Origin: an uncultured Poribacteria bacterium
GTDB lineage: Bacteria; Poribacteria; WGA-4E; WGA-3G
DNA: 64,000 nucleotides
Reading direction: 5' to 3'
NCBI GenBank assembly: GCA_951828385.1
Contig: OX639973.1
Span: forward strand, 1,488,001 to 1,552,000
Shown: one piece after another, positions 10,272 to 29,870 of the stretch
Numbering within the stretch: the stretch's first letter is position 1
Layout of the letters: the number at the start of each line of letters is the position of its first letter
The notes under the pieces: model-generated
Told to the model about the DNA's origin: nothing
The model's input: the letters and a program-made list of their open reading frames with translations, nothing else
Databases searched by the model: none
Made by a program: the position numbers and the translations under genes

Positions 10272-10325
10272 TTGATCAACAACTCGCGCCTTAGCAAAAG
10301 TATCTGTAGACGAGTTGTTGGTCAA
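10272..10325. repeat. 54-bp palindrome-ended element, intergenic copy
   Basis: Ends are inverted copies: TTGATCAACAACTCG at the left and CGAGTTGTTGGTCAA at the right (one mismatch). The whole 54 bp is present in reverse orientation inside rsmG (18379-18432), with 46 of 54 bases identical. Here it lies between tRNA-Ser(GCU) and tRNA-Arg(ACG). Confidence 0.85.
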
Positions 10326-11378: not shown

Positions 11379-11492
11379 GTGATAGTTAACAGTTAACAGC
11401 TGTCAGTTACAAGAGGTTTTCGATAGTTCCAAAGTCTGTTAACTCAGAACCGAAAGATTTTTTCGCAGAAAAAATCGTACTGACAACTATAA
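11379..11492. repeat. Opposed-arm AGTTAAC-type repeat with central A/T hairpin
   Basis: Left arm GTTAACAGTTAACAGCTG, right part CTGTTAACTCAGAACCG, then GATTTTTT-CGCAG-AAAAAATC, a perfect 8-bp hairpin, followed by GTACTGACAACT. The AAAGATTTTTT...AAATCGTACTG core recurs at about 23929 and 24573. Confidence 0.7.
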
Positions 11493-11605: not shown

Positions 11606-11885
11606 TTGGCTATGCTAGGTGGGGAGGTAGCGGTGCCCTGTATCTGCAATCCGCTAAAGCAGGACTGAATCCCCAGTATGCGGCATGTTTCTGTGGGGTC
11701 TGTCCCACGTACGTAGTGTTGAGGGTTGGGTCTTGAGCAACGAGTGCTTGTTAAACCCCGTCAGGTCCGGAAGGAAGCAGCGGTAGATGAGTTATTCGTG
11801 TGACGCAAGGGTGCCTGACCTGAGCTAACGGCGCGGGCAACGCTTGGAGGGGCTTGTCAACTTTGGGTGCATAGCCATTTTTTTT
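11606..11885 (+). ncRNA. ffs: Signal recognition particle RNA, large (Alu-containing) bacterial type
   Basis: The SRP54-binding hairpin is unmistakable (CAGGTCCGGAAGGAAGCAG, 11762-11780). The 5' part carries the Alu-domain signature GGTAGCGGTGCCCTG and GCAATCCGCT, as in Bacillus or Clostridium scRNA, so this is the long form and not the short 4.5S type. The ends pair perfectly: GGCTATGC (11608-11615) with GCATAGCC (11869-11876), followed by a run of eight Ts that would act as terminator. The RNA scaffolds Ffh for co-translational membrane targeting. Its position directly before dnaX is common in bacteria. Ends are estimated to within a few bases. Confidence 0.93.
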
Positions 11886-14210: not shown

Positions 14211-14325
14211 AAAAAGTTAATGGTTAATAGTTAATGGTTAATGGTTATAAGTTAAGAGGTTTTGATTGCATCACGTGCCCCTCTTAACCAACAACTAATA
14301 ACCAATAACCAACAACCACTTCGCA
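14211..14325. repeat. Opposed-arm GTTAATGGTTA-type repeat between ybaB and recR
   Basis: Left arm is a run of GTTAATGGTTAATAGTTAA-like units ending in AAGAGG. Right arm is CCTCTTAACCAACAAC followed by TAATAACCAATAACC. The two arms are inverted copies around about 25 bases. Confidence 0.75.
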
Positions 14326-17861: not shown

Positions 17862-18017
17862 TAGCTCGCGAGTTGAAGTTCGCTCCTACAGGCCGATCGA
17901 GCCACACGTAATATAACAATATCCGTTCGTTCTTGTCTAAAACCCGTTTTGGACAGGGCCCCCACCCGTTACTCGGAAGGGGGACAAAACGGAGCAAAAA
18001 CTCAATATTTAAAAATT
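17862..18017. repeat. Repeat-rich gap between mnmG and rsmG
   Basis: Holds a GTAGCTCGCGAGTTGAAG-type segment (17862-17894) and, at 17956-17987, a GGGCCCCCACCCGTTACTCG element flanked by CCGTTTTG and CAAAACGG inverted repeats. The latter is a relative of the in-frame element at 15311-15340. Confidence 0.65.
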
Positions 18018-18758
18018 TTGGCACAGGATAAGCACGTTTTACTAAAAGAAACTTTCAATAGGCATGGGTTTTCGTTAACCACGCATCAGGCAGTACAGTT
18101 TGACCAGTATCGTAAAGAACTGCTTCGGTGGAATGCGCGTATGAATCTGACCGCAATCACAGATGAGAATGAGATTATTCACAAACATTTTCTCGATTCT
18201 TTAAGCGTTTTGGAACATATAACTCTTAAAAAAGGAGACACTGTGATTGACATCGGGACAGGTGCCGGATTCCCGGGAATTGCACTGAAAATTTACGTGC
18301 CTGACATCCGATTAACGCTTGTTGAAGCATCAAAAAAGAAGGGGAGTTTCCTAAAATTTCTAATCCCGCAACTAAACCTTGACCAAGAAATCGTCTACAG
18401 ATACTCTGACAAAGGCGCGAGTTCTTGGTCAAATCAACAAGTCAACGTTGAAGTCCTTACCGAACGCGCGGAAATTTGTGTGCAAGACCCTGATCGTGTC
18501 GGTGCTTATGATTGGGTTTTCACCCGTTACGTCGCAACTATTCGGGACTCCGCTGTATACTGCCTGCCGTTCCTAAAACCGACCGGAAGGTGGGTGGCTT
18601 ACAAATTTGGGCGGGAAATAATAGACACTGAAATTGATGACAGCGCGGCACACCTGCGCGCGCTCGGTGGGAGCATTGAAACCGTTTTCACAAACCCAAA
18701 GTTCAATCGGAGTTATGTTGTGGTGCGCCGCACTAACACACGAGCATGGGCAAGATAA
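18018..18758 (+). CDS. rsmG: 16S rRNA (guanine(527)-N7)-methyltransferase RsmG (GidB)
   Basis: SAM-dependent methylation of G527 of 16S rRNA. Recognised by QYRKELLRWNARMNLTAITDENEIIHKHFLDSL, motif I DIGTGAGFPGIALKI, LVEASKKKGSFLKFL and RAE followed by YDWVFTRYVATI. The TTG at 18018 is preferred because the family N-terminus begins about there; the frame extends to 17949, but that part is translated repeat DNA. No ribosome site is clear. A stretch of about 18 residues after LIPQLNL (DQEIVYRYSDKGASSWSN) has no counterpart in the E. coli or B. subtilis proteins as I remember them. It is encoded exactly by a 54-bp palindromic repeat (18379-18432). Confidence 0.9.
   Translation: MAQDKHVLLKETFNRHGFSLTTHQAVQFDQYRKELLRWNARMNLTAITDENEIIHKHFLDSLSVLEHITLKKGDTVIDIGTGAGFPGIALKIYVPDIRLTLVEASKKKGSFLKFLIPQLNLDQEIVYRYSDKGASSWSNQQVNVEVLTERAEICVQDPDRVGAYDWVFTRYVATIRDSAVYCLPFLKPTGRWVAYKFGREIIDTEIDDSAAHLRALGGSIETVFTNPKFNRSYVVVRRTNTRAWAR
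18379..18432. repeat. 54-bp palindrome-ended element inserted in frame in rsmG
   Basis: TTGACCAAGAA at the left end and TTCTTGGTCAA at the right end are perfect inverted repeats. It is the same length as the intergenic copy at 10272-10325 and matches its reverse complement at 46 of 54 positions. 54 bp is 18 codons, so the frame is kept. Confidence 0.88.
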
Positions 18759-23159: not shown

Positions 23160-23852
23160 GTGGGCGAGAGAACTGAACAGGTTATTACGCTTTCTCTCCC
23201 AAGCTCAATGCAGCATGTTTACCTACTCAGGGCTGTTGTCACTGAAATCTTGAAAGAGACAGATTTCGATGAAGACACCCAAGAGCGGATTAACCTTGCT
23301 ACCATTGAAGCGGGTACAAACGCAATCGAACACGGCGATAGAGAGGATCCGGACAAACCAACAACTTTTCAGTTGATTCTTACTGAAAATGAACTCATCA
23401 TTAACACTGCGAACGAGGAAGCGGAATCCAGACACAAAGAGTCCGAAACTGAACAGGTTATTACGCTTTCTCTCCCAAGCTCAATGCGACATGTTTACCT
23501 ACTTGATGTTGTCGTTACCGAGATCTTGAATAATTTGGATTTCGCTGAGGAGATCCAAGAGCAGATTAACCTTGCTGCCATTGAGGCGGGTACAAACGCA
23601 ATCAAACACGGAAATAAAGAGGATCCAAGCAAAAAGGCAATTATGCAGTTCCTTCTCGATGAAGATAAACTCACAATTGTCATTGAGGATGAAGGCGAAG
23701 GATTCACACGCAAAGAAGTTGCTGACCCCCTTGACCCAGAGAATTTGCTGAAAAGCAGCGGCAGAGGCTTATTCTTGATGGAAGCTTGTATGGACGCTGT
23801 TACTTACGAAGCCAACGGCACTATTATCAAAATGGTTAAATATAAGACATGA
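23160..23852 (+). CDS. RsbW-like anti-sigma factor / serine kinase with internal duplication
   Basis: Protein of 230 residues built of two copies of one GHKL half. Copy 1 begins TEQVITLSLPSSMQHVYLL and copy 2 TEQVITLSLPSSMRHVYLL, 279 bp (93 residues) apart; both keep the N-box (IEAGTNAIEHG and IEAGTNAIKHG). Only copy 2 continues into the G1 box (EDEGEGF) and G2 box (GRGLFLMEACMD). Copy 1 stops before them, so it probably cannot bind ATP alone. The GTG at 23160 is chosen as start because AAGGAG lies 9 bases upstream. The role is to phosphorylate STAS antagonists and/or bind a sigma factor. Confidence 0.9.
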   Translation: MGERTEQVITLSLPSSMQHVYLLRAVVTEILKETDFDEDTQERINLATIEAGTNAIEHGDREDPDKPTTFQLILTENELIINTANEEAESRHKESETEQVITLSLPSSMRHVYLLDVVVTEILNNLDFAEEIQEQINLAAIEAGTNAIKHGNKEDPSKKAIMQFLLDEDKLTIVIEDEGEGFTRKEVADPLDPENLLKSSGRGLFLMEACMDAVTYEANGTIIKMVKYKT

Positions 23853-24000
23853 ATGGTTGTCGGTTGTCGGTTGTCGGTTAAGAGGGAAACGCTCATAATA
23901 AAGGCTTTCTCTTAACCGAAAACCGAAAGATTTTTTGAAAAAAATCGTACTGAAAACTGATAACTATTCCGTAGAAAAACCGCACTGACGACTGACTACT
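23850..24000. repeat. Opposed-arm GGTTGTC-type repeat with A/T hairpin
   Basis: Left arm TGGTTGTCGGTTGTCGGTTG continuing to AAGAGG. Right part TCTCTTAACCGAAAACCG, then AAAGATTTTTTGAAAAAAAT, CGTACTGAAAACTGATAACT and a final CTGACGACTGACTACT. Fills the gap between the RsbW-like gene and the second STAS gene. Confidence 0.72.
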
Positions 24001-29767: not shown

Positions 29768-29870
29768 CGCTTACCAGTTACCAGTTACCAGTTACCAATT
29801 ATCAGTTATCAGTTACCAGTTACCAGAAGGGAAGCTTCTTTACTGGTTACTGGACACTGACCACTGTTAA
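29768..29870. repeat. Opposed-arm CAGTTACC-type repeat at the 5' end of the NHL gene
   Basis: Left arm: CCAGTTACCAGTTACCAGTT with ACCAATTATCAGTTATC. Centre: GAAGGGAAGCTTC. Right arm: TACTGGTTACTGGACACTG. It is open in the frame of the NHL gene and, if translated, gives SYQLPVTNYQLSVTSYQ. Confidence 0.7.

Follow-up and report, generated by a model that had tools for sequence, protein, structure and literature searches.

How does a 54-nt palindrome come to lie in frame within rsmG while the gene stays open, and what kind of DNA is it? The question is raised by a 64,000-nt stretch of the genome of an uncultured Poribacteria bacterium (contig OX639973.1), referred to here as the window, for which an initial annotation made from the letters alone had noted the palindrome, a twin among the tRNA genes and a possible role for strong selection. 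Our comparisons of sequences indicate that both palindromes are very probably copies of a short, non-autonomous mobile element that, as far as we searched, is restricted to a single genus of Candidatus Poribacteria.

The rsmG palindrome and its twin are copies of a covarying hairpin

The palindrome lies in frame within rsmG, as the initial annotation had stated, and the proposed twin among the tRNA genes could likewise be confirmed as a 54-bp copy in inverted orientation that matches at 46/54 positions, or 87% over 60 nt (Table 1). The rsmG ORF runs uninterrupted across the element, and the true start of the gene probably lies inside this ORF, near position 18018. The element begins with TTGACC and ends with GGTCAA, and its 15-nt stem arms (TTGACCAAGAAATCG and CGAGTTCTTGGTCAA) enclose a loop of 24 nt. 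Each of the two window copies forms one hairpin with this geometry (stem TTGACC...CG / CG...GGTCAA), and the fold is stabler than that of shuffled sequence on either strand (z -3.1 to -5.0). A large bacterial SRP RNA gene (RF01854) is found just downstream of the tRNA cluster, at window positions 11610-11874.

Table 1. Features of the rsmG element and its twin (window coordinates)
Feature	Position	Strand	Evidence
rsmG (gidB) ORF carrying the element	17949..18758	+	ORF, Pfam GidB E 5.7e-40
54-nt palindromic element inside rsmG	18379..18432	+	sequence, fold, covariance model E 4.4e-17
rsmG element, left stem arm	18379..18393	+	sequence, fold
rsmG element, loop with conserved core TCTACAGATA...AAGGCG	18394..18417	+	sequence
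rsmG element, right stem arm	18418..18432	+	sequence, fold
Intergenic twin between tRNA-Ser(gct) and tRNA-Arg(acg), opposite orientation	10272..10325	-	covariance model E 6.9e-20

In a set of 85 distinct copies, the loop sequence is conserved and substitutions in the stem are paired, with variants that include CCAAGAA/TTCTTGG, CCAACAA/TTGTTGG and CCATCAA/TTGATGG. One stem pair is G-C in 41 of these copies and C-G in 39. Changes on both sides of the stem fill 71 cells in this set, compared with a maximum of 37 in 1000 shuffles, and a second test on 27 copies gave 26 against a shuffle mean of 7.0 (0/500 shuffles). Stem pairing in the 27 copies reaches 97.8%, compared with at most 45% in slid controls. 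The covariation thus indicates that the hairpin shape is maintained, either through selection for mobility or through correction of one arm by the other, two readings that these data do not separate.

Most copies measure 54 nt, with relatives of 51-57 and 75-76 nt, the longest being 76 nt. Subfamilies with other loops have lengths of 53 or 55 nt, and 57-nt and 75-nt forms also occur. Half-matches in the DNA search, considered as possible traces of a larger autonomous element, turned out to be the 75-nt loop variant. The 55-nt subfamily (L252, L256, L258, L275-L277) is flanked by CCCGATTTTT (or CCCGTTTTT) and CGGAAAAA-type sequence and looks as if it were nested in a larger, separate palindromic repeat (GTTTCTGCTCCGATTTTT...).

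The element belongs to a dispersed family within one genus

The genome of origin (6.66 Mb) holds six strong copies according to a DNA search, and a covariance model based on 27 copies marks 15 places in it. The E-values of the further copies in the DNA search (1e-8 to 4e-17), together with 8+9 matches to an arm pattern compared with 0 to the reversed control pattern, exclude chance. Weak matches of 14-20 nt in the same genome (L007-L015) were taken as chance, and a genuine diverged copy lies near L010.

The covariance model found matches in 32/38 examined genomes of the same genus. Some of these genomes hold dozens of copies, and the top genome gives up to 64 model rows, in which both strands are counted so that the copies are fewer. 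Outside the genus, a single weak match was obtained in 41 genomes. A 22-nt core pattern gave 28 exact matches, all in Candidatus Poribacteria, in a collection of 84,980 species with one genome each. The distributions of core and model matches thus identify the host as a poribacterium and, as far as searched, essentially confine the family to one genus. Viral contigs scanned with the 22-nt core pattern gave no match, and viral carriers of the element were rejected on that ground. The literature that we searched on Poribacteria describes no such repeats or MITEs, though absence there is no proof of novelty.

Family copies occur in both orientations and the majority are intergenic. One genome (G008) has two hairpin copies, one of them truncated, less than 80 nt apart (L199 2104-2239) at a place where G001 has a single copy, and the pair may reflect a tandem or nested insertion.

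Filled and empty sites point to the replacement of three base pairs

Comparison of filled and empty sites gave a consistent result at the informative coding sites: the gain is the length of the element minus 3. The 54-nt form adds 51 nt at rsmG, at the first site in rdgB and at L186, as it also does at the intergenic site L053. The 57-nt form adds 54 nt at the second rdgB site, where it replaces exactly GAA between otherwise closely matching flanks, and the 75-nt form adds 72 nt in manB. One intergenic pair (L187) gave +52, not +51. With a gain of length minus 3 there is no ordinary target duplication, and the replacement of 3 bp leaves an element whose length is a multiple of three frame-neutral.

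The sequences next to the element are AACY|AAC in 68/148 copies and GTT|RGTT in 16/148, and both types fit the replacement of GAY within the heptamer-array sequence AACYGAYAAC. The AAC flanks had been considered as a target-site duplication, which we rejected: they are array sequence (AAC-Y-[GAY]-AAC) with GAY replaced, and comparison with empty sites shows the loss of 3 nt. Many loci contain degenerate heptamer arrays of the GTTATCA/TGATAAC type, which are abundant and include window positions 11381-11413, 14226-14258, 23852-23884 and 29771-29825; in rdgB, tlyA and recD2, some of them are translated in frame into QLSVIS-like peptides. The arrays look like a second gene-invading repeat, within which the hairpin is often nested.

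These comparisons suggest a mechanism in which a 54-nt hairpin unit would spread to many places, mostly intergenic and especially in heptamer arrays (AACYGAYAAC), would remove 3 bp at its target and would be moved by an enzyme acting in trans; movement itself we infer from presence and absence between species. We propose more tentatively, with somewhat less than even confidence, that the hairpin integrates by swapping itself for exactly 3 bp under the action of an enzyme, and that protein-coding palindromes thereby arose independently a second time, in a phylum far from Rickettsia.

Candidate movers and an improbable regulatory role

One candidate is a MITE of the usual kind, belonging to a DDE-type insertion sequence whose transposase would act in trans on its terminal inverted repeats. 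Such an element would likewise be non-autonomous and dispersed, and the 15-nt terminal inverted repeats and scattered copies in both orientations are what such a MITE would provide. We regard this explanation as possible though rather doubtful. There is no target-site duplication, the length-minus-3 rule holds at rsmG, both rdgB sites, manB and L186, and the element is almost wholly one hairpin. Among the arm matches listed in five genomes, moreover, there was neither a parent nor any long element bounded by these arms, nearly all of which are paired 37-40 bp apart.

Less likely still is a REP-type element moved by a RAYT through a single-strand, hairpin-recognising, IS200/IS605-like reaction. 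REP elements with RAYTs are palindromes tagged with GTAG/CGTC (PMC3733652). They share with the poribacterial element short hairpins, high copy number, taxon specificity and the presence of some copies within genes, recB being an example. RAYT-like genes (NF047646) are widespread in the genus, and Y1 transposases are present in the genome of origin. The poribacterial element differs from REPs in its length of 54 nt versus 20-40 bp, and a GTAG/CGTC tag is absent at a fixed flank in 148 copies. RAYT genes are present both in genomes that carry the element and in genomes that lack it, and co-distribution lent no support to a RAYT as mover, as no correlation with element copy number emerged: G016 has nine RAYT-model matches and few elements, whereas G005 and G018 have one weak match each and many elements. 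The scanned loci around ten Y1 genes of the genome of origin (L103-L112) contain no copy of the element. RAYT insertion is not known to remove 3 bp from its target, and we count this difference against the explanation. Across the RAYT co-distribution, the Y1 loci and the arm matches listed in five genomes, no linked RAYT, transposase or autonomous partner of the element was found.

We consider it very improbable that the hairpin is a structured RNA or regulatory element under selection that entered genes by accident. Strong stem covariation around a conserved loop, and positions in a tRNA cluster and upstream of genes, would suit such a role; however, the covariation is also expected if one arm corrects the other during replication, neither window copy has an Rfam match, positions vary between species without a fixed orientation, and in L055, L296 and L186 a coding gene holds the element in antisense direction. 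A non-autonomous mobile palindrome seems the best description of the family.

The rsmG insert occupies a predicted-disordered loop

We identified rsmG in 37/40 relatives. An alignment of the homologues places the insert in few members of the genus (G000, G010 and G004, with a decayed and enlarged form in G019) and shows it to be absent from most; of the remaining members of the genus, some have no insert and others show, at this position, a tandem-like addition of 18 nt. The initial annotation had taken as refuting its reading a finding that all relatives carry the same 18 residues with unrelated DNA, but most of them lack the residues altogether. In G019 (L021 1845-1912) the net gain is 102 nt, in frame, with the right half of the hairpin partly duplicated. 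The origin of the empty alleles by precise excision was rejected, as they do not match the product expected between the flanking ATC copies.

The rsmG element encodes the residues LDQEIVYRYSDKGASSWSN where relatives have L-x. The 18 extra residues first described are thus in frame, although the net gain over the nearest empty relatives is 17 residues (51 nt), the 54-nt unit having replaced 3 nt. The insert maps to the single residue 121 of B. subtilis GidB (1xdz). The earlier description of known proteins running here from strand to strand is right in that other RsmG proteins have no residues at this point, but the insert follows a helix (residues 106-118). An AlphaFold2 model of RsmG assigns pLDDT <50 to residues 129-140, between this helix and the strand at 144-147, and the insertion site, variable among relatives, is a loop predicted by this model to be disordered.

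Other carrier genes, reading frames and survivorship

In-frame copies were also identified in rdgB (at two sites), tlyA, manB, recD2, a metallo-hydrolase gene and others. Pfam matches on the carrier proteins include Ham1, FtsJ/S4, PGM_PMM I-III, Lactamase_B_2 and RecD2 domains, and the remaining carriers are long ORFs of unconfirmed identity. The first rdgB site is filled in G000, G004 and G010 and empty in G014; the second contains the 57-nt variant in G005 and G020 and is empty in G014, G010 and G000. The tlyA gene carries the element in four genomes, manB carries the 75-nt variant and has an empty site in L091, and further genomes carry the element in recD2, manB and the metallo-hydrolase gene.

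Only two of the six consensus frames lack a stop codon, one on each strand (open in 82 and 80 of 98 copies), and these read LTKNSSTDTFAKARVLGQ in the sense and LTKNSRLSKSICRRVLGQ in the antisense direction. The majority of coding copies use the sense frame and two genes (L055/L296 and L186) the antisense frame. A third frame is used in rsmG, closed in the consensus by TAA (TGC TAA) and open in the loop of the rsmG copies, where the corresponding codons are GAC AAA. A function common to these peptides is unlikely, since they change with the reading frame, and the added residues are probably functionless in themselves. Survival in genes would follow from three properties: an element of 3n length that replaces 3 bp keeps the frame, the consensus is stop-free in one frame per strand, and the tolerated sites are surface loops.

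Credible coding copies account for 24/138 of those with lengths divisible by three and for 0/40 of those measuring 52, 53, 55 or 76 nt (p 0.0013 with copies taken as independent, orthologous copies being counted more than once). The collection, 178-180 copies in 124 site clusters, was gathered by similarity and is no random sample, which leaves only a rough estimate of the coding fraction, and spurious ORFs were weeded out by eye. Two flagged ORFs of copies with other lengths (L260 and L276) look like a chance ORF and a leader before a purH-like start. The initial annotation had suggested strong selection on insertion length and site. That suggestion is not borne out in this form: most copies are intergenic, lengths of 52, 53, 55 and 76 nt exist without being credibly coding, and the rsmG loop elsewhere tolerates the 18-nt additions and the 102-nt insertion. 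The plain reading of the pattern is survivorship, in which gene-breaking insertions are lost and neither length nor site is chosen.

The closest parallel that we find is provided by the Rickettsia palindromic elements (RPE), the 'protein-coding palindromes' of Ogata et al. (2000, 2002), as reviewed in PMC10969869. RPE are about 150 bp long, and palindromes that survive in conserved proteins are chiefly known from Rickettsia, with the same process in other prokaryotes regarded as 'conceivable' (PMC10969869). Both families consist of dispersed palindromes that lie between genes and in frame within unrelated genes, adding a peptide and leaving the gene intact. The poribacterial element differs in phylum, in its length (54 nt in most copies and 76 at most), in its covarying stems, in its replacement of 3 bp, in lying largely within heptamer arrays, and in having relatives of non-3n length that stay out of genes. 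The 22-nt core, found only in Poribacteria among the species searched, is not shared exactly with Rickettsia, and the likeness that we describe is one of behaviour. By analogy, the best reading is that the element works like RPE. It would provide a second case, in a phylum distant from Rickettsia, of housekeeping proteins extended by small mobile hairpins, here by about 17 amino acids with the reading frame intact in sponge-associated Poribacteria. With its length variants and its replacement of 3 bp, the element opens to test the conditions under which such DNA can enter genes.

History of the insertions

In a tree of RsmG, carriers fall into three subclades, each of which also holds non-carriers. 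The rsmG elements of G010 and G004 are identical at 53/54 positions between flanks that are about 82% identical, whereas those of G000 and G010 differ at 4/54 positions between flanks that are about 96% identical. Simple vertical descent does not explain this patchy distribution together with the near-identity of the G010 and G004 copies. That near-identity despite flank divergence is also compatible with constraint, and the stop codon of the rsmG frame is absent, but the view that the insert serves RsmG as an adaptation, providing a new binding loop, and is no mere tolerated parasite, is the least probable explanation of all, given the differences between G000 and G010 within closely similar flanks, a frame unlike that of all other element-carrying genes, a loop predicted to be disordered and the lack of an insert in most relatives.

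Exchange between species likely lies behind the history of the element, to judge from these patterns. The filled and empty sites, which differ between close species, offer markers for gene exchange among sponge symbionts. The rdgB gene of G004 (L114) itself looks recombinant, its 5' part with the insert resembling, by eye, the clade of G000 and the rest its own clade.
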